Below are positions 40 to 30,000 of a DNA stretch of 30,000 nucleotides, one piece after another. A program made the position numbers and the translations under genes. Source of the stretch: Chromera velia (lineage: Eukaryota > Sar > Chromeraceae); NCBI GenBank assembly GCA_018398765.1, contig JAHBMJ010001427.1, positions 1 through 30,000 of the forward strand, read 5' to 3'. Every line of letters starts with the position of its first letter. Positions within the stretch are counted from its first letter, which is position 1. The notes beneath the pieces were generated by a model. The model was given only the letters and a program-made list of their open reading frames with translations, was not told where the DNA came from and did not search any database.

Positions 40-276
40 AAACAATTGATCTTCGAGGCGACGGAGCTGGATGTCGACATAGTGTTCAACGACACCCCTC
101 TGGATGCCACTAAAGAGCAGCTTGTTCTTTCGGTAATTGCGCAGCTGGACAGAATTTTGCAGAGGGAACAAAGTCAAAAAGAAAAGCAACCACCGCAAGA
201 AGAGCGGGACGTTTGTGGGGGGGGGGCACAAAAAGAACAAGGACAGACGGAAGAGGAGAAACAAGTTTTGTCTTGA
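40..276 (+). CDS. Probable terminal exon of an unknown gene (5' part outside window)
   Basis: After the TG repeat and a plausible acceptor (CAATACAG) an open frame of about 78 codons runs to TGA at 274-276. Its first part looks protein-like (IFEATELDVDIVFNDTPLD, then a leucine-rich stretch ending LDRILQREQ), followed by a charged Gln/Glu/Lys-rich tail that could form a coiled coil or be disordered. I do not recognise a family. The start, and all upstream exons, lie outside the window. The C-terminal tail includes a poly-G run read as GGG, so the last third may be poorly conserved. The case for coding rests on the acceptor and on amino-acid composition only. It could also be a chance open frame. 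Confidence 0.4.
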   Translation, partial: KQLIFEATELDVDIVFNDTPLDATKEQLVLSVIAQLDRILQREQSQKEKQPPQEERDVCGGGAQKEQGQTEEEKQVLS

Positions 277-1015
277 CAGCAGGGATGGGGGAGAAGAGAA
301 GCAATAGACTTTATCTCGCCAGCCGGGGGAGCTGCAAAACCGTTTCTTTCATTTGTGTACGGGGGAGAGAAAGCGAATGTGGGCCCTGATGAGTCCATGA
401 AAGCGTAAAAGAATCGTAACGGAGTGTTGTGTGCGTCTTTCTTTGTCTGTGTGCTTGGCGTGAAAGAATTAATGGGCTTTTAAGGGGGGGGCGCAGCACG
501 CAGACATGCAGCCGTGTCGTGTCGTGTACTGATACAACTCTGGTCTGAATTCGCTGTGTTCTCGCGTTCATGGTTGATTGGCGTGAAAGAATTCAACTCA
601 TTTGCGTCCATTTTAAGTGCAAGAAAAATATGCCGTGGGTTTCTTTTTGCTTGCGTCCATCCATTTGTGTGCCGGTGCCTCGCAAACTTTCAAGCTGAGG
701 CCCGATGCAGTCAATCCTCCAAGTGACAGCCTGCTTGCGTGCGTGCGTCAGTGTGATCGAGTGACAAAGGCGACATGGGAGCCCGGGGAGCTGGGGAGAG
801 AGGTGAAGACAGGGGATGCATTGTCTGCCCAGACAGACTGTGGGGACCCAACTGAGTTTGCTGTCGAGTTCTTTATGCTACAGGTGCCGTTCTGATAGGG
901 CGTGCGGTCGATCCATTGGACATGGTGCAGCATGCGTCTCGATCCCTCAGTCTCTCTCCTTTTTCCTTTTCTTTTTCAGGGTTCGAAAGGACACGATATC
1001 GGGCCTTTCTCTTCT

Positions 1016-1140
1016 AATCCATTCATCCATCCATCTGTACATTCATTCATTGGTTCATTTCTTCGTCTATCCATCCCTTCATTCACCCATGCATTAATTT
1101 ATCTGTCCATCGTTTCATTCATTCATTCATTCATTCATAC
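1016..1140. repeat. Degenerate (CATT)n/(CATC)n repeat
   Basis: Repeated CATTCATT and CATCCATC words with interruptions, ending in a clean CATT run around 1116-1137. Short frames reading through it (HPFIHSFIH-like) are repeat translations, not genes. Confidence 0.85.
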
Positions 1141-1198
1141 AATGACCCGTTGCTTCCTTCTTTCTTGTCGCCTGTGCAAGTATTTGGCCAAGCATGTG

Positions 1199-1245
1199 CG
1201 TGAGTGAGTGAGTGAGTGAGTGAGTGTGTGTGTGTGTGTGTGTGG

Positions 1246-1282
<37 letters not shown>

Positions 1283-1290
1283 CGCGTGTT
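1199..1290. repeat. Compound (GTGA)n-(GT)n microsatellite
   Basis: Six or more GTGA units pass directly into an interrupted GT tract (with GTGGGTGTGCGT variants) ending near 1290. Confidence 0.9.
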
Positions 1291-2078
1291 GGTCGATCTC
1301 GACCATGCCCGTGCATGTCGTTTCGCCTTCAACGTCTCATGACCGTAAATCTGGCCGCAAATGGATGGGCTCATGCATGCATGGATGGATGCATTGGGGG
1401 TGCACGCAGAGAGTAACGGTGCACAGAGCAGGTCACACAATGTCGTGGACTTAACAAGTGTTTGGGGGCGGAATCACATTTCTTCTGCCTCAATTATGCA
1501 GTGAATGAGTCTGTTTTGCAAGACAATTGAAATGGTCATGCATGCATGCGTGCTGGCTGCAACTTGCTGCACCAAACGTGCATGGATGGATGAAGTCATT
1601 CTCGATTCTGTCTATAGGATTCTGTCGTCAGGGGGAGGGGCAGGGAATCGACGGATACAGTATACAACTCGTTTGCAAAAACCATGAATTATAATCATTT
1701 GATAAAAAGTGGAAGTTGGATACTATTGGATATAGGCAAAACTGGATGCTAGCCTATAAATTGTCCGCAATAACAACGCCTAGAACAACGCTTCGGCATT
1801 TTAGAAGCTAATTTAGAGCTAGAGTTAGAGCAATTACAGCTTCTCTGCCATAAGTCTTACAGAGAAACAAATTCAAAAATATTGAAATCTTGTATATATA
1901 GTTAAAATCCAACAGAATGACTATCAATTTTTAAGTTATCTAGTATCACATAGTATCATACATCTAGATCTAGTCAGCAGGACTAGCAGCAGGATGACAG
2001 CGGCTTTCACCACCATGCACACTGGCAATCAACAATTAACAACTTAAATCAGAGTCTGATTCAGAGAACTGGTACGCA

Positions 2079-2086
2079 GGTCTAGG
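2079..2086. repeat. 8-bp target-site duplication, left copy, hAT element 1
   Basis: GGTCTAGG immediately before the terminal TAGTAACC of element 1. The identical 8-mer follows the right end at 3234-3241. Eight-bp duplications are the hallmark of hAT transposition. Confidence 0.85.
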
Positions 2087-3233
2087 TAGTAACCATGTTT
2101 GATTTGATTTGATTTGATTTGATTTGAGGTAGGGCTTAAGCTCAAATCAAATATCCAGTCAGGGAGGACCTAGTCTTTAAAGACCTATCAAATACGATCA
2201 AATATTTGATCAATATAACTTTTAACCTCAAATATGAAGGTCCCGAAAAAAGTTTTGCAAGTACCAATCCGTCACGCATGCTGATTCAAATGAAAAAACC
2301 TAAATCTTGATAGTTTGCTCTAAAAAAAAAAACGTTTTGAGCTGCACTGAAATTAACGTTTCACCCCTTTTTACTTCATGCAGAGATAAACCGATCAGCT
2401 GAACGTTTTCCCGAACAGCTGTGTTGACTTTTCTGGTACTGGAACATCTTTTACGGCCCCCTTTTTGAGCGTCTGCAAACATTTTACACCCCATAAAGAC
2501 ATGTCACACAATCCGACAGGGTCAAACGGGAAGAAGGAGGCATTTGTTTTTAGAGCCGGGTACGTAAAAAAAATATGGTCCGTGCAAAAGGGGGCAAATG
2601 TAATTCAGTGTCAGGTGAAAATACAAGGAGCCGAGGGGGAAGGAGAAACTATTTGTGGCTGTGAGTATGCAGCAGTGGCAAGCAGTTCTTTTCAAACCCA
2701 CCTTATCAATCAGCATGGCTTGACAATCACGTCTGACAAACATGTGCAGCTGCTCCAAGAAAGACAGGAGAAGCAGTCAGAGGGGGCGGGGGGGACAAAG
2801 CAGCCTGACGTGCGAACGTTTTTCCCCACCAAAGATGAAGCAGAAGCCGTGGTCGCACCATATGCAGAGACGTATGAGAAGAGAATCAAGTGCGATATGC
2901 TGACCACTGACTTTCTGGCCAGTGCTGGCTGGCCTCATCTCACAGAAAATGAGGCATTGCGAAAGCTGGTCAAAGTACTGGACCCCCACTACGATCTCCC
3001 GTCTGTAGAGAAGGTGCAGAGACTTCTGCTCCCAACACTAAAGAACGAGATTATTCTGTCAATCAAAGACAGGTTGAGAAAAGCAGCGACCCGACGAGTG
3101 TCGATCACCCTAAGACAGTAAGTCAGTAACTCAGTGAGGAACCCTAAGAGGTTAACCTTAAATCTTACCTCAAATATCAAATATTTGAGGTTGAAGCTCA
3201 AATCAAATATAATCAAATCAAACATGGTCACTA
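2087..3233 (+). mobile_element. hAT-type DNA transposon remnant, element 1 (1147 bp)
   Basis: The termini are inverted repeats: TAGTAACCATGTTTGATTTG at the left and its near-complement ending CAAACATGGTCACTA at the right. The left end has one mismatch to TAGTGACC. Just inside are arrays of TTTGA at the left and the reverse at the right, like the subterminal repeats that hAT transposases bind. The 8-bp duplication GGTCTAGG flanks it. The interior carries the 5' part of a transposase gene and then jumps to the 3' end, so this is an internally deleted, non-autonomous copy. It shares about 717 bp of left end and about 120 bp of right end with element 2 next door. Confidence 0.85.
2501..3121 (+). 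pseudogene. hAT transposase N-terminal fragment (BED-like finger and start of the core)
   Basis: The open frame from ATG 2501 encodes about 206 residues. Residues about 12-80 resemble a BED-type zinc finger: an aromatic-rich start (FVFRAGYVKKIW), then CGCEYAA...SSFQTHLINQHG with Cys pair and His pair. Residues about 140-195 match the opening of the hAT core, with LTTDFLASAGWPHLTENEA, then ALRKLVKVLDPHYDLPS, then a helix ending KNEIILSIKDRL. This is the classic 'weak residue block, P-x-Y-x-(L)PS' hAT signature. The RNase H-like catalytic core and the dimerisation domain of a full transposase (usually 600 residues or more) are absent, so it cannot transpose by itself. Truncation comes from the internal deletion near 3114, not from a point mutation. 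Confidence 0.75.
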
Positions 3234-3248: not shown

Positions 3249-4888
3249 TAGTGACCATGTTTGATTTGATTTGATTTGATTTGATTTGAGGTAGGGCTTA
3301 AGCTCAAATCAAATATCCAGTCAGGGAGGACCTAGTGTTTAAAGACCTATCAAATACGATCAAATATTTGATCAATATGACTTTCAACCTCAAATATGAA
3401 GGTCCCAAAAAACTTTTTGCAAGTACCGATCCGTCACGCATGCTGATTCAAATGAAAAAACCTAAATCTTGATGGTTTGCTCTCAAAAAAAAAACGTTTT
3501 GAGCTGTACTGAAATTGACGTTTCACCTCCTTTTACTTCATGCAGAGGTAAACCGATCAGCTGAACGTTTTCCCGAACAGCTGTGTTGACTTTTCTGGTG
3601 CTGGAACATCTTTTACGGCCCCCTTTTTAAGCGTCTGCAAACATTTTACACCCCGTAAAGACATGTCATACAATCTGACAAGGTCGAACGGGAAGAAGGA
3701 GGCATTTGTTTTTAGAGCCGGGTACGCAAAAAAAATATGGTCCGTGCAAAAGGGGGCAAATGTGATTCAGTATCAGGTGAAAATACAAGGAGCCGAGGGG
3801 GAAGGAGAAATTATTTGTGGCTGTGAGTATGCAGCAGCAGCAACCAGTTCTTTTCAAACCCACCTCATCAATCAGCATGGCTTGACGATCACGTCTGACA
3901 AACATGTGCAGCTACTCTAAGAAAGACAGGAGAAGCGGTTGGAGGGGGCGGGGGGGACGAAGCAGCTGTCCAGAAAGGTAAGGGAAAAGGCAATGGGGGG
4001 GCTGCTGACAGTGCTGGAGGGGGGGCTGCTCCTGCAGGGCCCAGCGGGAGGACTAATGTGAAACCAAAGGAGGCGGCCGCAGACGCAAATGCTGAGAAGG
4101 CTAGGGGGAAACTTCCCCCTCCTGAGAAAGTCATCACTCCGGGTGAGGAAGGCTACCGACCTCTCTATATTCACCTCTAATACAAGGGGCTTGTTGTCGG
4201 CCCTGGCACGGCACAGAGGGTAGCCGAACTTACCAACTCTGGATGCTTAGCTGCCCAGAAATAGGACGGTTCCAACACCAACAGCAATAGCAAATGTATG
4301 CGTGGTTCTCCGTCTCACCCCGTTGTTATCTCTCCGCAACTGAATAGAAGCCCAGGAGTACCCACCCCTGGAAAGCCGAAAAGTCAGAGAAAAAGCTCTC
4401 AGCAGCTCCCACCACCGATCAATTCGATTCATATTGAAGAAAGTGATCATGAAGAAGAGGAAAAGGAAGTGCCATAAAGCTGAGTGATTGTCACCTCAAT
4501 TTTAGTACGTGCTCTAACTTTATCGTATCAACAAAAAGTCATATGCAATTTTAAATCTATCAATTTTACGTTCTTAATCTCTATTAGTACTAGAGTGAGT
4601 CTCAGTAACTAGTGTATATACACTGCCACACAGGCATATTTTTTTTACGGAACTGATAAGTTATAATTATATATATATTTTTTTAAATTTTTGAAATACA
4701 CATCAGAAATGTTCTGATAACTATTGTCATGAGAAAAATGATCAGAGTGACAGTAAGTCAGTGACTCAGTGAGGAACCCTAAGAGGTTAACCTCAAATCT
4801 TACCTCAAATATCAAATATTTGAGGTTGAAGCTCAAATCAAATCAAATCAAATTAAATCAAATATAATCAAATCAAACATGGTCACTA
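3249..4888 (+). mobile_element. hAT-type DNA transposon remnant, element 2 (1640 bp)
   Basis: Starts with TAGTGACCATGTTTGATTTG and ends CAAACATGGTCACTA, with TTTGA subterminal arrays at both ends. It is flanked by GGCTGTGG at 3241-3248 and 4889-4896. It matches element 1 at high identity from its left end to about 3965 and again from about 4749 to its right end. Between these lies a segment (about 3966-4748) that element 1 lacks, just as element 2 lacks element 1's 2804-3113. The unique part includes a stretch near 4365-4477 reading as a basic/acidic C-terminal tail that ends IEESDHEEEEKEVP and a stop. It probably preserves the 3' end of the parent transposase gene. Confidence 0.85.
3663..3920 (+). 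pseudogene. hAT transposase N-terminal fragment, nonsense-mutated
   Basis: Starts at ATG 3663 (MSYNLTRSNGKKEAF) and reads the same BED-like finger as element 1 (CGCEYAA, HLINQHG) for 85 residues. It stops at a TAA (3918-3920) where element 1 has CAA, a C-to-T change. An upstream cysteine is also replaced (VIQYQV against VIQCQV in element 1), which may damage the finger. Downstream sequence (Gly/Ala/Lys-rich, then stops) shows the internal deletion and decay. Confidence 0.75.
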
Positions 4889-6725: not shown

Positions 6726-8614
6726 TCAAAACTGGTGGGGGTTGAACGGAGGGGGGGCCGAGGCCTGTCCGAAAGGGGGGGCGGTGCCTGCCTGCTGGGC
6801 CTGTCCTGCCTGCTGGAAAGGGGGAGTCACACCGGCACCTCCGAAGGGTGCGGCGGCGCCGCCGAAGGGGGCCTGCTGCTGGCCGAAGGGTGCGGCGCCG
6901 CCGAAGGGAGGCTGCTGCTCTTGCTGGCCGAAGGGTGCGGCGCCGCCGAAGGGAGGCTGCTGTTGCTGCTGGCCGAAGGGTGCGGCGCCGCCGAAGGGAG
7001 GCTGCTGCTGCTGCTGGCCAAAGGGTGCGGCGCCGCCGAAGGGAGGCTGCTGCTGCTGGCCAAAGGGTGCGGCGCCGCCGAAGGGAGGCTGCTGCTGCCC
7101 TGGCTGTGCGAAAGGAGGAGCGGCCTGTCCTGAGGGAGGCTGGAGAGAGGGGTAGGTGGAGGGGAGGGGAGGCATCTGGTTGCCTCCGACTCCCTTGAAG
7201 CCCCTGCCTGCACACCCGCCGCAGGGGTTCCACGGGCCCTCGCAGATGTACTGGTTGCGTCCAGCTCCGTCTTTACCACCTGCATGCAGAGAATCATAGG
7301 GATTCGAGCAAGAAAGGTGTCACACTTTCAATATTGATACGGGAGGTCGAGATGGGCACGTCACGCTCTCTTTTTTTGCATTGCCACTGACGGGGTGAGG
7401 CGAGAGAGCACTAGGGAAAAGGCCAGCTTCTCTGTGAAATGCACTGCCGGACAAATACCCACAAACAGCAATACTGACCCTTTCCTTCGCACTGTCCGCA
7501 CCGAGTCACCATGTTGAAGCCAGGGTGGGAAGGGCTGCCCCCGCAGGTGAAGCACACGTACTTCCTCCTGGGGTCTGCCATGTCGCAGGGGGACTTGTTC
7601 TCGTCGAGTCCTCCTGTGCGCACACCCACATCAGGGGGGGGATGAGAAATGCTTTCAAAAAACCAACACATGGGGGAGGGCCGTGGACACCCTGCTCAGG
7701 CTTGGGGAGGCAGCGAGAGAGAAGTAAGAGAATTCAGCTCTTGAATGGCGCGGATGAAGACTTCGTCCAACGTGGACTAGGGGCGAGGCCAGATTTCACG
7801 GTGCAAGTGCAAAGTGAGAGACCGACGCAACCCTTTCCCGTGACGGTATTGTCTGTGATGTCGGAAAGAAAAGGTGATATGAGAACATGGGACTGATGTT
7901 TCCTCCAAAGAATCTAACTCACCTTTTCCTGCGCATCCAGGGCAAGGGCTTCCTCCCATCACGGGTGCGGCAGGAGTGGGAGCTGCTTGAACTTGCTTGA
8001 AGCCACGACCGGAGCAGGCTGTGCACTGGCTCTTGAAGTGCATGTTGTACGGGATCGCAGGCTTGCTCCAAGTGTCAAAACCACCTGCAATCACACCATC
8101 GAGTCAGGGAGTGGAGAGTTGAATGGAATCTCTCACTGATCGAACCAACCACGTAGGGGGTGGCATTTGTGAGTGTTGCGGAAGAACAACACAAACACCA
8201 AGAGTCAATTCCCCAAGAAGGCAGAGAGCAACAAAAATGTATAATAGGAGAGGGGGAGCTGTGCTCACCTTTCCCTTCGCAGGTACCACACCGGGTGATC
8301 ATCACAAACTGGGGGCCTCTGCAGGCTCCGTTGCAGGTGTGGCAGGGTCCTTTGCGGTGCATGTTGGAGGGGTCACAGGGGTTTCCCCAGGTGTCGAAGT
8401 GACCTGCAGTGCGCACAAGTCAGATACAAAGGCATTCATTCATGCAGCTAGGGTGGATGGGCAGAAGGTAGATGCACCAAGAGGAGGACCAACCCTTTCC
8501 ATTGCACTGAGGGCAGGCAGCGTCGGACATGTTGCTGTTGGCGCCTTGTTGAAGAGAAACGGAGGCTTCAGCAAGTTTCTGTGCACCGTATGCAGCAGCT
8601 TGGGCAAGGAACAT
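6726..8614 (-). CDS. CxxCxGxG zinc-module protein with PPFGGAAPFGQ repeats
   Basis: Five exons on the minus strand: 8614-8494, 8403-8269, 8084-7923, 7613-7479 and 7279-6726, giving about 368 residues. Every intron is GT-AG and in phase 1. Exons 2-4 each encode a module of about 45-54 residues. A typical module has an FDTW-like start, a CxxC(x)G pair, a linker and a second pair such as CGTCEGKG or CPGCAGKG. Exon 1 ends with CPQCNGKG and exon 5 opens with a related CGGCAGRG. The CxxCxGxG form is that of the DnaJ/Hsp40 central zinc finger, so zinc binding is likely, but there is no J domain. Exon 5 then encodes repeats of PPFGGAAPFGQQQQ and a disordered Pro/Gln tail ending NPHQF. Function unknown. 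The ATG at 8614 is the first in frame. A GTAAGT near 8677 hints that a 5' exon may exist upstream. Confidence 0.75.
6849..7102 (-). repeat. Coding minisatellite, 42-45-bp unit (PPFGGAAPFGQn)
   Basis: About six tandem units with the + strand core CGGCGCCGCCGAAGGGAGGC, followed by CTG/TTG codon-complement runs of variable length. On the minus strand each unit reads PPFGGAAPFG plus three to five Gln (one unit has a Glu). The number of Gln codons varies from unit to unit. The GC-rich units leave all frames open, producing spurious frames on both strands. Confidence 0.9.
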
Positions 8615-9292: not shown

Positions 9293-10714
9293 ATGTCCCG
9301 ACTTTCCCAAGACGTGTCAAGGCCGTCCATTCATGTCTCAAATGTGCGGTCTGTGGAGGGTCGTGACGTCTTTCTTGCAGATGATCTTTTAGAGATTCGC
9401 ATCCGTGGCTTGGCGCCTTCGTGCGCCTTCTCTTTGAAGTGCCGTCTCGAGGACGATAAAAAAAGGGCCTTCGCCTCTGAGATTGAATATGAGGCTGACG
9501 AGACGGGTGCGTGGACGTCCACCAAGGACTTCTCTCACCGTCCCATGGAGAGTTTTGAGCTTTGCAGACCGGCTGAGGGGCAGAGACAGGGAACAAGGCT
9601 GTCACAGTCCGATGTCATGCAGCCCCAGAAAGCGTTTTTATCCGTCTGCATCGACGGCCGCTCCGTTGCCAGCACGGTGTGTGAACGGTACTACCACGAC
9701 GACGCGAATGTCTGGAGGGAACCGTTTCGCAATGCCGATGGGCTTGTTGGCACTCTCTTTTTGCAGAGAAATTCGACGCCTCAAAATCAGGGGCGTTCAC
9801 CTAGCGGCACCTCAGCGACGCCTGCGGACAAGCAGGCAGTCGCTCGAAGCCGATCAAATTTGTTGATTCTTGACATGTTTGGGACTGGAGGTGGGCTTGT
9901 GGAATACAAAGCCTCTCTGCTGGCTGCACGGTTGGGGTGTGATGCCGTGCACATTGGGTTGTTCAATGTGCCCGGTACTCAGTTACCATCCGTTTGGCAG
10001 GACATCGACCTTCTGTATCTGAAACGATTCCTGCAGGCGATGCGGTTGAGGTTCCCTGATCCCGAGAAAAGATTTGTACTGCACGGTATGTCGATGGGTG
10101 GTCAGCTGGGCATAGCAGCCGCGTCCCTGTTTCCCGACCTAGTCGACGGTCTGGTTTCGGTCAACGGCTCCCCCTTCCTCTTCGACCCCTTCCGCCTTGA
10201 CGGACACCCCCTGCCTCACTACGCCCTGCAGACTGAAAATGCAGAGTTTGGAACGATAGGAGAGGGGCCAGACGCTTCAAATTTCATCATCACAGAAAGG
10301 ATGTTCAAAGGCGTAGACCTGGACATCGCCACTCGGAAGAGAAGGGACACGTGGCCGATGGCTCCTGTCTCTTCCATCCGTTGTCCGACTCTGATTGTCG
10401 CCTCGAAGGACGACAAGAACTGGCCCTCCCTGGAATTTGCCAAACAGGTCAGACGAATAACTTCAGCCGACCCGGAGACGTCTATCAACTTTCTGGAGCT
10501 TCAGAACGCCGGCCACCTGATGGAGCCCCGACACGGACCCGTGTGCACTGTGGTTTATCACGGGGTCTTGAAGATGCTCCTCCAGCAGGGAGGAGAGAAT
10601 CTTGTGGGGGCCGCTGCTGACTTTGAGTTGGCATACGAGGCAACGCTCGCTTTCTGTCGGAACATTGCCACTAGCGCTCAGAGAGCAAGAAAGGGAGCGA
10701 AGGCCAGGTTGTAG
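9293..10714 (+). CDS. BAAT/acyl-CoA thioesterase family hydrolase with PTS1-like tail
   Basis: Intronless, 473 residues from ATG 9293. The frame is open further upstream but without an ATG. Residues about 15-150 match the N-terminal domain of bile acid-CoA:amino acid N-acyltransferases and type I acyl-CoA thioesterases (beta-sandwich, with LEIRIRGLAPSCAFSL, then EIEYEADETGAW). Residues about 185-465 are the alpha/beta-hydrolase domain. The nucleophile elbow is GMSMGG with Ser267. The catalytic Asp lies in SKDDKNWPS (about 373-374) and the His in NAGHLMEP (His408). Serine rather than cysteine points to thioesterase activity, releasing fatty acids from acyl-CoA. The protein ends RKGAKARL, and ARL fits the peroxisomal PTS1 consensus. 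Length is close to family norms (about 420-480). Family assignment is firm; substrate and location are inferred. Confidence 0.85.
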   Translation: MSRLSQDVSRPSIHVSNVRSVEGRDVFLADDLLEIRIRGLAPSCAFSLKCRLEDDKKRAFASEIEYEADETGAWTSTKDFSHRPMESFELCRPAEGQRQGTRLSQSDVMQPQKAFLSVCIDGRSVASTVCERYYHDDANVWREPFRNADGLVGTLFLQRNSTPQNQGRSPSGTSATPADKQAVARSRSNLLILDMFGTGGGLVEYKASLLAARLGCDAVHIGLFNVPGTQLPSVWQDIDLLYLKRFLQAMRLRFPDPEKRFVLHGMSMGGQLGIAAASLFPDLVDGLVSVNGSPFLFDPFRLDGHPLPHYALQTENAEFGTIGEGPDASNFIITERMFKGVDLDIATRKRRDTWPMAPVSSIRCPTLIVASKDDKNWPSLEFAKQVRRITSADPETSINFLELQNAGHLMEPRHGPVCTVVYHGVLKMLLQQGGENLVGAAADFELAYEATLAFCRNIATSAQRARKGAKARL

Positions 10715-11437: not shown

Positions 11438-14400
11438 TCAACTTGTTCTAGTTTCTGCGTTGCCAGTAGGATCTTTCTTGTACGCCCCTTGTACTCCGAA
11501 GAGCTGCGTGAGGTAGACGCCCGTGGACGAAGACGCCCCCGCAGCGACTCCCAAGCCCATGACGTCAAAGTCCCCCAGCAAATTCTTCCGATGGCCCTCC
11601 GACTGGATCCAGCTGTTCACAGCCGCACGGGCGCACTTCTCTCCAGATCCCTGCAAGCAGGTACTCCTCCGCAGATGTACACATGATGAAAAAGATTGAG
11701 GCCGTAGGAAAACGTATGGACGATCCCAAAAAGCAATACCAAGGAACCTCAGAAATGACTAGGAAGCAGCAGCGAGACGGATTGCGGAATGCTGCGGATT
11801 TTGCTTGCTTGCTTGCTTCCTTGCATGCATGCATGCTTGCTTCCTTCCTTTCTTTTTCTTTCCAGAATTACTTTCATCGGAACACGTGACTCTATGCGTG
11901 ACAGTCAGGTCGATACGATGTCCGAGAGGTTGACTGACAGACTACCTGACTAACGTGATTGATTGCCACGTTCTCCGCAGCAGCCCTTGAGAAGAACGGA
12001 TAGCTCGCAAACCTCTCATGAGCACCCTCGTGTCCGAAGGGCACTTCTGCCCTCAACATCCGTTGAGAGTGGACCCGCGCAACGTTGGAGACTCCTTGAG
12101 ACCACCTCAAAGGCGGCTTTCCGTGCATTTCTCTGTAGGCGTTGGTGAACCTCAGGACCGCAGGCCCGATGGCAGACGGGTCGTTGGAAGGGTCAAACTG
12201 AAGAGGGGAGGTGAAGGAAGAATCAGCGAGAGAGGACGATTATGGCGACGCAGACGGACATCTTCTGTCTATTGGTATTCAACATAAACGCGTAGAGAGA
12301 AAGAGTGGATGGAGACATGAAGAGAGATTGAACGATCTGTAGAGAGGGGGAAGCGGACGGACAGCTGCACAAGCAGAAACAGACGATTTGACAGAGCCAG
12401 ACATGCAGACAGAGTGTTTTTTTTCGTTTCTTTCCTATTCACTGACAAATCAAGTCATGACGCACAAGCAATCGAGGATATGAACGACAAGTATACACAT
12501 TCGTTACTTCACACGAATGAGCCTTGCATGGTGAGTAAATGACATACGCACTCGACCGGCTAGCCCATAAGGGAATTGCAAGAGAATGGATGAAACAAAC
12601 AAGACAAAACGAAGAAGGCATGCAGAAAGCAGTGGCTGACTAACCGACCTTCGCATCTGCCGCTCTGTCACGTTCATCCAGTTTCCTCAAGTCTGTCCCT
12701 CCCCTCACCTCCCTCTCCCGAGTTCCCTCCGACGGATCATAAACTCTCCAGCTCCCGTCAGCTTCTCTGATCCGAGCCTGCACGGAAGGAGGGTGGGAGG
12801 GAGTGGGGTCATGGCTCAATGTCGTCCTGTCAGGTGTGTGTCCTTCTGCCTGCCTGCTTTTGCAGGTCTCCTCGCTCTTTTGAGGCTGCAACTGTCTGTT
12901 CGTCCTCCTGCCCAGGGGTGTGTGTGTTGCGGTTTGCCTGTGAGCGTGTGTATGGCTGTTTCCCTTCCTCTCTGCGTTTATCTCCCCGTTAATCAACTGA
13001 ATCGTCTGTTTGCGGAACCCATTTCTGAACACACGCTGCACGACCGAGTAGGGACAGCTGGAGGGAGAAAGGCAGGAGGAGGCCCTTAGAACGGACCGCT
13101 GAGGGATGTGCACCCCCTCTTTGAAGCTGTGCCTGCTGCGCCTGCCTGTTCTTGTGCGCCTCTCTGGCTGCCTGCAGGTAGTCCCTCAATTGCTCCTGCT
13201 GTTGCTGTTCCTTCACTGCTCCAGGGTCGCGTCGCCTGCACGAGATAAGATGATTTGGGTGAGCAGGGAGTGACTGAGGGACAGAATCAAACTAGAAGAG
13301 TGGATAGAAATGAAGAATTTAAACATGGAGAAGGATGGATTGCAACCAACGGAACTGCATGCTGACATGATGACTCAACTCTCTCTCCCACTCAATCAGA
13401 ATATATGTCTGCGTACGATCAGACAGGCTTGTAGACGCGGTAAACGTGCCAACGTGTCCATGCACGTGCATACGTACACAATGCGCGTACATGTACACGT
13501 GAAGTCAGTCAGGCGCGGAGAGGAATACACACCTGCGTGTAAGGCTGCACTGAGGCAGACAAAAAAAAAAAAATGAATGACTGCATCGATGGTAGGCATA
13601 CTGCGGAATATTGTGGGTAAGGCACAGTCAGCCTCAAAAACGGAGAAGCTGAAGATTGATGAAAGAGCAACCTGATTGATTGATTGATCGATCTGCATGT
13701 GAGAAGGACCGACCGACCGACCTCTTGAAATCGAATGCTCCCCCGCCTGTTGTCCTCTTTTCCCTCTGACTCCCCCCGAAATCCCTGTCTTCCCCCTTCC
13801 CCCTGTTGAGAGAGGAAGCAGCCCCCGTTGTTCCCTGTGTCCCCTTTTGAAGGCTCTGGTGACCTTGTGTCTCTCCATTTGCTTCTCCATCTCCGCCTCC
13901 TTCCACGGAGATCCCCGTATCACCCTCACCACCAACAACACGCTCAGATCCCGTTGACATATCCTCCAACAGACTCTTCGCAAGCCACAGACGGGGGTAG
14001 GCGGTTTCGACCGACGGGTGCACACTGAAGACGCCTGCCTTCTCCGCAAAACCCATGGCCTGCGAGTAGACAACAAGAACTTCTAGTGCATGAAATTAAG
14101 CAAAGGACAGGAGCCACGGAAAGTAGGGTAAAAGTGACTGACCTTCAGAGCTCTAACAGGCCTGGTGTCCCCCCCTACAGCTGCCTGGAACTTGGGGTTT
14201 GACGCTCGAATGGACTGGAATCGAGAGATGTCTGCAGAACAACACCCATACATGCAGGGAAAGTATGTATGTTGTTTGCAATTTTTGTGGACTTTCGCTG
14301 AGAAGGTATCTTTAATTACGAACAGACGGTGTCCCACCTGGGTTTTCCACAACGTTGGTGGCCACCTGCAACAGCAGATCAATGCAGGCCTTCCTTTGGG

Positions 14401-14710
14401 AAGAAGGAAGCTCCATCAGGTCCCAGAGAGACGAGGTGATTAGGGCAACGGTTTTGTCACTCATTTCGGCTCCCGTCTCGTCAGCAACAGACCCCTCTCC
14501 CTCCTCTTCTTGTTCTCCAGCCTGAAGCAAAACGCTCGGGGGCTCAGAAGACACCACCCCCCCTTTACTTTCACTAGTGGCAGTGGCTGCGCGTCCAACC
14601 ACATAGCCAGGACCGCTACCAGAAAAGGGAGTTACTGTTGGACACTGCCGCTCTGACTGTGAACCTGTTTGTTCAGAAGACTCAGATTGCCCCATTATAA
14701 TCAGATGCAT
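11438..14710 (-). CDS. PUB domain - CAP/SCP domain fusion protein (seven-exon model)
   Basis: Exons (minus strand): 14710-14338, 14231-14143, 14059-13722, 13235-13097, 12777-12649, 12197-11946, 11650-11438; 510 residues. All phases match at GT-AG junctions; only the exon-4 donor (GTCCGT) is weak. Residues about 98-195 form a PUB/PUG domain: DLLLQVATNVVENP, then RFQSIRASNPKFQ, ALKAMGF and YPRLWLAKSLLEDM. In other proteins PUB domains bind the C-terminus of p97/Cdc48. A Gly/Ser/Glu-rich linker and a Gln-rich helix (about 270-300) follow. Residues about 366-495 form a CAP (SCP/PR-1) domain of bacterial YkwD-like type: FGHEGAHERF (His412), AAAENVA (Glu431), WIQSEGHRKNLL (Glu458, His460) and YLTQLFG, so the CAP tetrad is intact. 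CAP proteins are normally secreted, yet no signal peptide is visible. An internal start at 14695 gives MGQSES, an N-myristoylation-like N-terminus. Domains are firm; their union in one transcript is inferred from exon phases. Confidence 0.7.
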
Positions 14711-15204
14711 AGGCGTTTCGTGGCCTTCCCTCGTGCTAGACACAGTAAACTTACACGATTTTTGAAATACTCTGCAGATTGAGTGTCTCTGGCAGAGAGA
14801 ACTGATCAGGTCAAACCGTAAAAGACTCAAATACTGTTCTGCAGAAGACTGTCTACAAGTAGACGGGCTCTTTGCGCGAAGCTCGGAATGGCTCTCGAGT
14901 AGATCCGATTTTGAAGGTCAGTCGCGCATGTAATCGGTTTCGTGCAGACACAGACAAAATTATCCCCGCCTGCACGAGCTCGATCCTTATATAATTGCAA
15001 GATGGTCCTGCAAATTTAAACTGTCAGAACGTACTATACTCTCTATAGCATCGTTACCAGACTTGTATCCGAGAGGTTTGGACCAGGTGATCGGTGTGTC
15101 CTCGAAATCGCTTCTCTTTGGGACCCTTAAATTTGGTCGTGTCTGTTGTTGGCAACTTGGCGCTTGGGTGACTGTTCATCTTGTCTCCAGCTGCTTGGGT
15201 CAGG
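14711..15204. promoter_or_regulatory. Bidirectional upstream region
   Basis: About 0.5 kb separates the ATG of the PUB-CAP gene (-) from that of the DEAD-box helicase (+). Both promoters must sit here. On the minus strand a GTAAGT near 14755 could be a 5' UTR splice donor. No recognisable core-promoter box was found. Confidence 0.4.
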
Positions 15205-18168
15205 ATGACAGCCGTCTTCTCTGACAGATCCTTCCGAGACTTCTCGGAGGAAGGGGACAAGCCTGGTGGGTGTATTCAGAAGCGGGTGGTTGATCAGTTG
15301 GAGTATCTTGGTTTCAAACAGATGACCCGCATTCAGATGCTCTCCATCCCTGAGATCTCTGCTCGTCAGGACTGTCTTGTCAGGTGTCAGACAGGCAGTG
15401 GGAAGACGCTCGCTTTCCTCGTGCCCCTTGTAGACCGTCTTTTGAAAAAGGGGAGACTCAACAGAGACGAGGGGACCCTTGCGATGGTCATTTCGCCTAC
15501 GCGAGAACTCTGCGCGCAGACTGAAGAGACGTTGAGGAAGCTGACCCAGATGACTCCTTGGATCGTCTCCTGTGCCATCACAGGAGGGGAGAAGAGAAAG
15601 TCTGAGAAAGCTCGACTGAGAAAGGGTGTCACGATTATCTGTTCTACGCCTGGGAGGTTGGTGGATCACCTTGAGACTACAGCGTCTTTCAAGGCAGGCA
15701 ATGTTGAGATGTTGGTGTTGGACGAGGCAGACCGTCTCCTTGATATGGGGTTTGAAAAGAACATCCACAAGATACACGAAATGCTTCTGCAGAAAGCAGC
15801 TGAGTCAGGGAATTCTGCTGTTGACAGTTTGGGCATTGCGAAGGAGATGTTGCAGGGTCTGGAGGAGGAGTCGGGGGCAGGTGAAGGGAATGGGCTTGCA
15901 TCCGAGGGGGGGGTTGTGAGTTTCGACAGTCCGGGGCTGTCGTCAAAGAAACATCCGAGGAAGGGGAGAGATGGACCCGCAAAGCCTGTCAAAATACCTG
16001 TAAAACAGGAGGAGGGGTTGGGGGATGGAGAAGAAGAAGATGACGGAGATGAAATGCTGTTTAACTTCGCTTCACTTTCCAAGCCTGTGTCAGCCAAATC
16101 GCTCCCAGTCTCTCCCAAAACAAAGATCAAGAAAGAAGAGGAGGAGATTTCAAGAGGAAGTGGAAAAGGGGGTGGGGGAAAGGAGGTCAAAAAGGAAGAA
16201 ATGATTGCCCAGATGAAGGAAGAAAAGCCAAACTCAGCATCCCCACCACCACCACCACCAGCAGCAGCTGCCAAGAGGATCCAGGTGGTCCTTGTCTCAG
16301 CAACCCTCACGCCTGCAGTCAAGCGTCTGGCTGCGTTTCTTCTCCGGAAGGATCACAAAGCAATCGGCCTGGACCTCCCGACAGGTTCTGTTGGACTTGC
16401 AGGGCCTCCGACTGAAGCCCTTCCGTTGCAGCCTGCAGAAAAGAGTCATTCAAAGAAAAGTGAGGGAAAAGGGGAAGATGATGATGATGAGGGGGACGTG
16501 GAAGCGGAGGCAGCTGCTGAGCTGCGCATCGATGCGCCATCCCGGTTGCGACAGTTCTACTTGATAGCGACTCTGAAGACTCGCACAGTCTTGTTGCTTT
16601 CTTTTCTTCTAGAGAAGGCCCCGAAAGGCAGAATTGTGGTTTTTGTCTCTTCCTGCGATTCCGCAGATTTCCTTCACGCATTCCTTCAGAGTGCTCGCTG
16701 GCCGACCGCAGAGGTCGTTCGGGGGGGTAAACCTGTTCCCTCTCGGGGTGCGCACCCCCTGAGCGATGTTGACATGACAGGCATGGACGAGGAGGAAATC
16801 GCAGCAGCAGCGATGGAAAGGGGGAGATTCAACCGAAATAAGGGGAATGAGGGAAGGGGGGGGAACAGGGGAGGGGTGGATTGGAGCAGCATGGCAGGTG
16901 ATGTGATTTTGGACAATGCGGTGGGTGGTCCCATTTCGGTGTTTCGACTGCATGGGAATCTAGAGAAGGAGGATAGGAAGGGAAATCTGGATGAGTTCTC
17001 GAACACTGAGAGGTCTGTGTTGATCTGCACAGATGTAGCAGCTCGAGGTTTGAACCTTCCTGCCGTCTCGTGGGTTGTGCAGTTTGATCCTCCTCAGATG
17101 GCGGAGGAGTACCTTCACAGGGCGGGGAGGACCGCCAGAATTGGGGCGGGGGGGAATGCTGTTGTGTTCTTGCTTGAGCATGAAGAGCGGTTTGTTGACT
17201 TGTTGAAAGAGAAAGGAGGAAAGTTAAGTGCGCTTTCTGAAGAGAAGGTTTTCACCGCTTTCAAGGAAAAGCACACACCCCCAGCGTTGTCTTCGATCCG
17301 TAACCCGGCGCCCTTTCTTCTCTCCTGGTTTGCGAAGTTCGTTTCGTCCGATCCCAAACTTCATGGGCTTGCACGGAAAGCCTTCCTAGCAACGTCTAGG
17401 GGATACAGGACATTCCAGCGCACTCTGAAGCCGATTTTTGATTCTTCCAAACTTCACTTGGGCCGTTTGACGTCTTCTTTCTTCCTTGATGAGACCCCCC
17501 TCAAAGTCGCAAAAGCGGCAGCACAGGATGGAGACGGGGGGGGGCAGGAGGGGGCCGGACAGGGCAGGGGAGGAGATCAGAGGGGACATTGGGGGAAACA
17601 CGTGAATGCAAAACAACAGAGACCTGGGAAAGTGGCTAGACTCCGTGCGAGATCAGAAGAGCACTCACGTGCGCAGCAAAAGCGAAAGCCTGCCGTCCCC
17701 GATATTGAAGTGGTCCCTTCGGGGCCCGGTGGGAGTGGGAAGGGAATGCCGGGGCCCATGAAGAAGTCGGGGGGGTGGGCGGGTCCGCCCGCGGGAGGAG
17801 ATGAAGACTTCGTTGGGGCTGCACTTGCAGCGATGAAAAGTTCAGGTGCATTGCTTGCCAAACCTGGAGATGGTTCAAAAAAGAAGAGGAAGGGAGGGAG
17901 AGAAGAGGGGGGAGAGGGAGGGAAGAAGTTTCGTGAGAGGGGAGGTGACGAAGCTCGTGGAGATGCAACAGAGAAAGGACGTTCCAAGTTTTCCGCCTCC
18001 GCAGGGGGGAGGGGAGGGGTGATCAAGGACAGGGCATTCGTGAAGAAGGGGGGCGTCCAGAAGGAAAGGTTTGGACCCCCCAAGAAGTCTGAGAAGGTAG
18101 CACAAGGGAAAGGAAAGATGGGCAAGCAGTCCTTTCAGTCCATGATCAGGTCTGAGTTTGCAGCGTGA
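15205..18168 (+). CDS. DDX31: DEAD-box RNA helicase, DDX31/Dbp7 type
   Basis: Single exon, 987 residues from ATG 15205; the frame is open upstream only from a non-ATG codon. Motifs in order: Q motif FKQMTRIQ (37-44), motif I QTGSGKT (62-68), Ia PTREL (98-102), Ib TPGR (148-151), II DEAD (173-176), III SAT (365-367), V ARGLN (613-617), VI HRAGRTAR (638-645). The GGEKRKSEKARLRKG block before motif Ib is typical of Dbp7/DDX31, ATP-dependent nucleolar helicases in 60S ribosomal-subunit biogenesis. WVVQFDPPQMAEEYLHRAGR also fits that subfamily. A roughly 160-residue acidic, Lys/Ser/Pro-rich insertion (about 197-355, with poly-Pro and poly-Ala) splits motifs II and III. Another acidic stretch lies near 415-435. 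The last 230 residues are Gly/Lys/Arg-rich and disordered, as in nucleolar proteins. Orthology is inferred from motifs, without an alignment. Confidence 0.88.
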   Translation: MTAVFSDRSFRDFSEEGDKPGGCIQKRVVDQLEYLGFKQMTRIQMLSIPEISARQDCLVRCQTGSGKTLAFLVPLVDRLLKKGRLNRDEGTLAMVISPTRELCAQTEETLRKLTQMTPWIVSCAITGGEKRKSEKARLRKGVTIICSTPGRLVDHLETTASFKAGNVEMLVLDEADRLLDMGFEKNIHKIHEMLLQKAAESGNSAVDSLGIAKEMLQGLEEESGAGEGNGLASEGGVVSFDSPGLSSKKHPRKGRDGPAKPVKIPVKQEEGLGDGEEEDDGDEMLFNFASLSKPVSAKSLPVSPKTKIKKEEEEISRGSGKGGGGKEVKKEEMIAQMKEEKPNSASPPPPPPAAAAKRIQVVLVSATLTPAVKRLAAFLLRKDHKAIGLDLPTGSVGLAGPPTEALPLQPAEKSHSKKSEGKGEDDDDEGDVEAEAAAELRIDAPSRLRQFYLIATLKTRTVLLLSFLLEKAPKGRIVVFVSSCDSADFLHAFLQSARWPTAEVVRGGKPVPSRGAHPLSDVDMTGMDEEEIAAAAMERGRFNRNKGNEGRGGNRGGVDWSSMAGDVILDNAVGGPISVFRLHGNLEKEDRKGNLDEFSNTERSVLICTDVAARGLNLPAVSWVVQFDPPQMAEEYLHRAGRTARIGAGGNAVVFLLEHEERFVDLLKEKGGKLSALSEEKVFTAFKEKHTPPALSSIRNPAPFLLSWFAKFVSSDPKLHGLARKAFLATSRGYRTFQRTLKPIFDSSKLHLGRLTSSFFLDETPLKVAKAAAQDGDGGGQEGAGQGRGGDQRGHWGKHVNAKQQRPGKVARLRARSEEHSRAQQKRKPAVPDIEVVPSGPGGSGKGMPGPMKKSGGWAGPPAGGDEDFVGAALAAMKSSGALLAKPGDGSKKKRKGGREEGGEGGKKFRERGGDEARGDATEKGRSKFSASAGGRGGVIKDRAFVKKGGVQKERFGPPKKSEKVAQGKGKMGKQSFQSMIRSEFAA

Positions 18169-29435: not shown

Positions 29436-30000
29436 ATGGTCATTCGTTCATGCATTCAGTCATCCAAACATGGATTCGTTCATGCATCGATTCACTCATT
29501 CATTCAGCATTACAGAGTGTCTGAGATGACTGTGTTTGTGTCGAGAAAACAATCTTACTTAGACAGGATGCACTTTCGAGCAAAAGGTGTTACCGCAGCT
29601 ACTAGCCCGACCAAAAAAGGGCATACGTGGGCCTGTGCATACCATCAAAACTCGGATACTCACGGATCACAGAAGCAAGCGAGCACTTACTCACTCAGGT
29701 TTTTATTTTTTTACACAGTGTCACCAACGCATTCACTCCATTTCTCAGTCACTGGCTATCCCTCTCCATTACTGACCCCTTTACTCAATGCTGGGCGCAC
29801 TCATTCCCATCAAATTTACTCTCCCTCACTTACCCTTTGCCCTTTTAGGCTTGGGGGAGGAACGGCGAGAAAGGCGTCTACCGTGGGAGTGAAAGGAAAC
29901 CGGCGAATCGAATATGGGGCTCCTGCCTGGGGGACACGGTCTCATGCTTTATAGCACATTGCGACTCCTTCTAGGCATGCTGTGCTGCCTTGCAGCAGCC
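29436..30000. other. Non-coding tail with CATT/ATTC words
   Basis: Degenerate CATTCATT-type sequence to about 29510 and again CACTCA/CATTCA words from about 29690. No gene supported. The last 150 bases are more GC-rich and could be the edge of a gene outside the window. Confidence 0.5.

Follow-up and report, generated by a model that had tools for sequence, protein, structure and literature searches.

Gene organisation of the locus

The window, meaning the entire 30,000-nucleotide stretch of Chromera velia DNA analysed here, contained a gene predicted on the minus strand between positions 14710 and 11438. Seven exons chained in phase to a protein of 510 residues, encoded by 1533 bases with a single terminal stop, as the first-pass annotation of this stretch had proposed from the exon phases. 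All six introns had GT-AG borders, with lengths of 106, 83, 486, 319, 451 and 295 bases, and the phase fitted at 6 of 6 junctions.

The predicted protein joined a PUB domain, located on exons 1 to 3, to a CAP domain, located on exons 6 and 7. Exon 1 (14338..14710, minus strand, as are all exons) comprised codons 1 to 124 and held two in-frame ATGs, the first at 14710 and another at 14695. The PUB match began within it at residue 105 (approximately position 14398), and V116 and N119 were encoded here. Exon 2 (14143..14231) extended up to codon 154 and carried the PUB core, ISRFQSIRASNPKFQ..., with F129, R133 and N136. The end of the PUB match was on exon 3 (13722..14059), followed by a glycine-rich linker with a terminal AFDFK. 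The linker continued on exon 4 (13097..13235; RRDPGAVKEQQQQ...) and exon 5 (12649..12777). More than one in-phase donor was available for exon 4, and the GT at 13096 yielded the 510 residues of the earlier model. The basis for exon 5 was phase and codon usage, and its similarity to the paralogue on contig C354 described below was scant. Exon 6 (11946..12197) comprised codons 357 to 440 with the first part of the CAP domain, including H399, H412 and E431. Exon 7 (11438..11650) encoded the remaining part with W454, S457, H460 and the motif YLTQLFG in codons 441 to 510, followed by the stop.

Codon usage was scored with stops omitted, and the training set of the model comprised five open reading frames from outside the gene (the DEAD-box and BAAT-like frames, C1436, a C682 neighbour and the C114 UBA frame). 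The modelled frames, which had been picked free of stops before scoring, outscored the other two sense frames in each of the seven exons, with values of 0.168 and 0.242 for the linker exons 4 and 5. Intron frames scored between -0.25 and +0.03. The remaining two sense frames of exon 5 were also positive (0.155 and 0.058 vs 0.242 for the modelled frame), and one antisense frame of exon 6 outscored the modelled one (0.104 vs 0.072).

An intronless DEAD-box helicase frame with an SPB4-type C-terminal extension was located at 15205-18168, divergent from the PUB-CAP gene. The 494 bases between the first ATGs of the two genes (14711..15204, the DEAD-box ATG being at 15205) represent a candidate shared promoter region. 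An acyl-CoA thioesterase/BAAT-like gene was present at 9293-10714; its frame ended with KARL, which we take to resemble a peroxisomal targeting signal. Two very similar open frames at 2390-3121 and 3552-3920 (TDQLNVFPNSCVDFSG..., compared by eye) represented a local duplication, possibly derived from a mobile element. Repeated PFGGAAPFGQQQQ units at 6726-7319 on the minus strand resembled an FG-repeat or low-complexity protein.

Domain content and a paralogue in the same genome

Pfam searches with the 510-residue protein identified PUB (PF09409) at residues 105-169 with an E-value of 4.2e-10 and 39.9 bits vs a cut-off of 34.3, and CAP (PF00188) at residues 371-491 with an E-value of 3.6e-17 and 63.7 bits vs a cut-off of 21.1. 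The CAP match covered the profile in full length (1-117/117). No third family was detected in the protein at E-values up to 1. Both matches being above their cut-offs, the earlier claim of a PUB domain and a complete CAP domain in one gene model was borne out.

A search for both domains in the assembly to which the window belongs (4040 contigs, 177.8 Mb) yielded 11 matches to CAP and 4 to PUB; the intron-split PUB domain of the window was outside these four. On the minus strand of contig C354, one PUB and one CAP match were located in the same open frame, which spanned 687 codons without a stop (238-2301, minus strand of the extracted locus). Counted from the first ATG (MGQMAGG...), the protein comprised 681 residues, and both domains exceeded the Pfam cut-offs (CAP with E 8e-17; PUB with E 3.2e-11 and 43.4 bits vs 34.3), in the same order as in the window. 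Since this frame is uninterrupted, no splicing model is necessary for the pairing there. The fusion of the two domains is very likely real, because a second, intron-free gene of the genome has both in one open frame.

The two proteins resembled each other in an MGQ start, the PUB domain, a glycine-rich linker with the stretch AF[DE]F[KQ]RR and the CAP domain, in this order. In the window, the linker stretch was formed across the junction of exons 3 and 4. The C354 gene differed in being intronless and in its longer N-terminus. The pairing seems to have been retained through a long divergence, because the CAP domains were 49% identical, the PUB domains were far apart, the whole-protein alignment showed 33% identity and the linker motif was shared. 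The CAP domain of the window had 37% identity to that of the next CAP gene, on contig C91. A direct pairwise search with the PUB domains gave 28% identity at an E-value of 0.19; the case for their common descent thus draws on the profile match, on the domain order that both proteins have and on their CAP domains.

For a census of the pairing, 15 stretches of the genome were scanned with HMMs built from its own PUB and CAP sequences. Of the 12 stretches selected because they matched CAP, 2 had PUB, and of the 5 PUB stretches 2 had CAP, in both cases the window and C354; intron-split domains can escape such a scan, the HMMs derive from these same genes, and one of the 12 CAP stretches, C1309, was very weak. 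An additional PUB match in the window (29563-29772, E 0.18) looks like chance. On contig C682, a frame had PUB as the sole family above the cut-off. This frame stopped 0.7 kb from the contig end, so a downstream CAP domain could be cut off. Two other PUB proteins had different companions. On C1436 (3120-4811, plus strand of the extracted locus), PUB was located near the C-terminus of a protein with a rhodanese match (E 6.5e-11), a weak dual-specificity phosphatase match (0.041, below the cut-off) and an MGCASSKK start, at which acylation is, we presume, plausible. On C114 (1779-2700 and 4239-4583, plus strand of the extracted locus), two UBA_7 stretches were followed by low-complexity sequence with N runs and then by the PUB frame; the UBA_7 stretches and the PUB frame presumably belong to one gene.

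The PUB pocket and a possible link to Cdc48

The published motif of the pocket that receives the p97 tail (PIM) is YxxN(x)9Y together with K/RxxN, represented in PNGase by Y38, N41, Y51 and N58 (PMC6995525). When aligned to PNGase, the window protein read VxxN(x)9F and RxxN (V116, N119, F129, R133, N136), and the C354 protein LxxN(x)9F and KxxN (L, N, F, K, N). The YxxN(x)9Y pocket was found in neither, as the first Tyr was replaced by Val or Leu. The K/RxxN carboxylate clamp was present in both, as R133xxN136 in the window and as KxxN in C354. Inspection by eye of the genome's five own PUB domains showed that the first pocket Tyr was kept only in C114 (Y, N, F, K, N); the position was held by Thr in C1436 and by Ile in C682. 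The first-pass annotation had described a p97-binding-type PUB domain and considered that a CAP domain tethered inside the cell to the Cdc48 or ubiquitin system would be new. The domain is a PUB by its profile, with N119 and the R/KxxN motif kept, but with the first pocket Tyr replaced a tethering to Cdc48 was not established.

A frame located about 1.2 kb behind the best Cdc48 match of the genome (C3521), found with a filter for such endings and presumably spliced to the AAA exons, had the tail EDEDDLYGS. A PIM-like ligand therefore probably exists in the same genome. At a second Cdc48-like locus, C3757, no PIM-like end was present among the frames listed. SHP, VIM and VBM are further p97-binding patterns. 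The strict SHP and VIM patterns were absent from the window and C354 proteins, and a search for additional SHP, VIM and basic VBM motifs gave none beyond shuffled sequences, with looser matches in the window protein recurring in 22-52% of shuffles. From the pocket residues, binding of the PUB-CAP protein to Cdc48 itself appears conceivable but rather doubtful.

The PUB domain might instead have lost PIM binding, like that of SPATA2, and grip a folded partner, which would make the protein a scaffold unconnected with Cdc48. We give this reading somewhat less than an even chance. It draws on the replacement of the first pocket Tyr by Val and Leu and of the second by Phe in both proteins, and on published changes at these positions. 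In UBXD1, Y181A raised the KD for p97 from 14 to 111 uM, an approximately 8-fold weaker binding, and Y194F raised it to 141 uM, approximately 10-fold weaker, with partial unfolding (PMC6995525). In the PUB domain of SPATA2 the first pocket residue is Val, and this domain is described as binding no known PIM peptide (PMC6995525). On the other hand, N119 was kept, and so was R133xxN136, which would contact the tail carboxylate and which reads KxxN in C354. The second-place Phe is not diagnostic, because the C114 PUB domain has Phe there with the first Tyr intact. In addition, the PNGase mutant K50A/Y51A still bound in a qualitative pull-down (PMC6995525).

Type and conserved residues of the CAP domain

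Sequence similarity places the CAP part closest to the YkwD type of bacteria. Its best relative of solved structure was 4ifa, an extracellular SCP-domain protein which we take to be bacterial, with an E-value of 2.7e-7 that improved to 1.2e-12 with a profile of three CAP sequences. GAPR-1 (1smb) was matched at E 0.15 with the window CAP alone and at 1.7e-5 with the three-sequence profile. The NCBIfam model spore_YkwD (TIGR02909) gave E 8e-14 with 51.7 bits, far below its cut-off of 171. Using tblastn against plasmids, CAP relatives with 32-38% identity were recovered in 10 bacterial or archaeal records, and four phage records matched the C354 CAP domain at approximately 29-30% identity. A viral or prokaryotic source was also looked for. 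A peptide-pattern scan of viral contigs yielded 146 pattern stretches and no relative. A scan of genome contigs with patterns from the CAP alignment yielded 180 pattern stretches, again without a relative; this null result mainly reflects patterns that were too specific, because tblastn on plasmids does recover CAP relatives.

The His/Glu/Glu/His set of the CAP domain had been reported as intact in the first pass. H412, E431 and H460 were invariant in the CAP domains of the window, C354 and C91, which supports three of the four positions. All three domains had Ser (Ser457 in the window) at the position equated with the second tetrad Glu of GAPR-1, an assignment that we made partly through the GAPR-1 numbering as we take it to be. 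The intactness of the tetrad is thus doubtful at one of its four residues. The bacterial-type structure 4ifa likewise had Ser there (...WLNSEGH), and only the window protein had a Glu one residue further on, E458. The zinc ligands of GAPR-1 are His54 and His103 (PMC6900432), which we equate with H412 and H460 as putative counterparts. Cysteines were few, with one among the 133 residues of the window's CAP region and two in the aligned C354 domain.

Could the CAP domain, as an enzyme or a metal site, act on polypeptides when they leave Cdc48, in the way that PNGase acts on glycans? The conservation of H412, E431 and H460 across the three aligned domains would suit such a role. Against it, the second tetrad Glu apparently corresponds to Ser457, and we know of no accepted catalytic activity common to CAP domains. 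Enzyme activity is carried by some PUB proteins, for example PNGase (PMC6995525). Taken together, we regard a processing role as unlikely.

N-terminus and predicted location

The hydropathy maximum of 11 residues at the N-terminus was 0.46-0.53 for the window protein and -0.05 for the C354 protein, compared with 2.88 for C91. Neither the window nor the C354 protein had a signal-peptide-like start in hydropathy and frame checks, in line with the intracellular setting that the first pass had envisaged for the CAP domain. The C91 gene (7736-8446, plus strand of the extracted locus) is a CAP frame of 237 codons with a signal-peptide-like start, MKIAICASVLALLADG, and its CAP domain was the closest to the two fused ones. 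On C3788 (4701-5480, minus strand of the extracted locus), a signal-peptide-like start (2.35) was located in the frame upstream of a CAP frame, with a stop codon between them that marks either the edge of an intron or a disrupted gene. This locus is weaker evidence than C91, because the stop codon separates the start from the CAP frame.

Met was absent from the open frames in which exons 4 and 5 lie, and the first Met of the exon 6 frame was inside the CAP match. The frames of exons 4 to 6 thus give no sign of an independent CAP gene starting with an ATG and a signal peptide; a start on an exon further upstream is possible. Given the missing Met ahead of the CAP match and the contrast with C91, the CAP domain is most likely intracellular. 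We consider it highly probable that the PUB-CAP protein is cytosolic.

Of the two in-frame ATGs, the one at 14695 had the better context, with A in position -3 and G in position +4; that at 14710 had C in both. A start at 14695 gives MGQSESS(EQ...), and the start of the C354 protein is MGQMAGG, without Ser at position 6. The consensus for N-myristoylation is MGxxxS/T. From the putative start codon, MGQSES fits this consensus, and MGQMAG fits a looser pattern only. Myristoylation of the N-terminal Gly is thus an option that we hold tentatively, at a little under even chances.

Export by an unconventional route, with action outside the cell, appears highly improbable. To our knowledge, PUB domains occur only in the cytosol or nucleus, and the one present here argues against export together with the lack of a signal-peptide-like start and the single Cys in the CAP region. 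Export would agree with the secretion of most CAP proteins (PMC11599453) and with the signal-peptide-like start of the near relative C91. A merger of two neighbouring genes, one for PUB and one for CAP, by the exon model has a very slim chance and separate genes were ranked low, since C354 has both domains in one frame with zero introns, the exon 4 to 6 frames offer no Met ahead of the CAP match and the phase is consistent across all six junctions, even though the fusion model is a prediction from sequence, exon 5 is poorly backed by the paralogue, and the exon 3 frame (13634-14095) continues into intron 3 until a stop, so that a PUB-only product through intron retention is possible.

Interpretation

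With moderate confidence, we favour a single intracellular adaptor in which the PUB domain docks a partner's tail and the CAP domain binds lipid or protein, possibly with an acyl anchor. The partner would belong to the Cdc48/ubiquitin system, and its tail peptide would be the docking site of the PUB domain. The CAP domain at the C-terminus, cysteine-poor and of bacterial YkwD type, would bind lipid or protein; for this ligand taken by itself, the chances appear even. The N-terminal Gly of the MGQ start may bear myristate and hold the protein at a membrane, as in GAPR-1.

A broader scenario is speculative and, in our judgement, on the unlikely side. An alveolate lineage would have made a CAP domain of bacterial type cytosolic through fusion with PUB, and the resulting small family of acyl-anchored adaptors would recruit Cdc48, or a different PUB ligand, to a site at a lipid or membrane. 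If true, the ubiquitin system would here include a CAP domain for the first time. What is new in the PUB-CAP protein is the way in which two known domains are combined; it does not amount to a novel type of system. CAP domains occur widely, and published abstracts continue to describe how they act as elusive. Two divergent genes that combine CAP with PUB would provide a cytosolic setting with few testable partners, namely the Cdc48 tail, PIM peptides and lipids. The list of PUB proteins would grow beyond glycanase, UBX and ligase proteins.

Comparison with known systems

The first-pass annotation had called the pairing unfamiliar, and a literature search likewise found no description of PUB with CAP/SCP among the papers listed. 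A search for Chromera velia together with the CAP domain found no paper, and the main text of the Chromera velia genome paper had no mention of SCP, p97 or Cdc48 (PMC4501334). In the assembly itself, 11 matches to the alveolin family, which also occurred in 1 of 14 control genomes (a bacterium), and 58 matches to light-harvesting proteins, likewise present in 1 of 14 controls (a cyanobacterium), suggest a photosynthetic alveolate. The plastid marker PsaA/PsaB had no match there.

The known PUB proteins PNGase (NGLY1), UBXD1/UBXN6 and HOIP/RNF31 share the PUB domain with the window protein. A profile of the five own PUB domains matched the chains of PNGase (7.7e-11), UBXN6 (3.9e-9) and RNF31 (2.4e-3); it also matched a C-type lectin chain at 1.6e-5, with no stretch passing by itself. 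The partner domains of PNGase, UBXD1 and HOIP are transglutaminase-like, UBX and RBR, respectively, and not CAP. The window PUB domain differs from all three in having no first pocket Tyr. For SPATA2, we know of no CAP domain. Its PUB domain is like that of the window in the Val at the first pocket position, according to the published description (PMC6995525).

The best sequence matches of the CAP part were bacterial YkwD-type and SCP proteins (TIGR02909, 4ifa), which differ in being secreted or spore proteins by name. We know of none among the bacterial YkwD-type proteins with a PUB domain. The nearest functional parallel to a CAP domain inside the cell is GAPR-1/GLIPR2, an intracellular CAP protein on the cytosolic side of a membrane with an N-terminal myristoylation sequence (PMC7554809, PMC3596275). 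GAPR-1 is located on the cytosolic leaflet of the Golgi, where it anchors Beclin 1 (PMC7554809), and GLIPR-2 that was not myristoylated was without effect in cells (PMC3596275). In contrast to GAPR-1, which consists almost of the CAP domain alone (PMC6900432), the window protein has a CAP domain nearer to the YkwD type, placed after a PUB domain.
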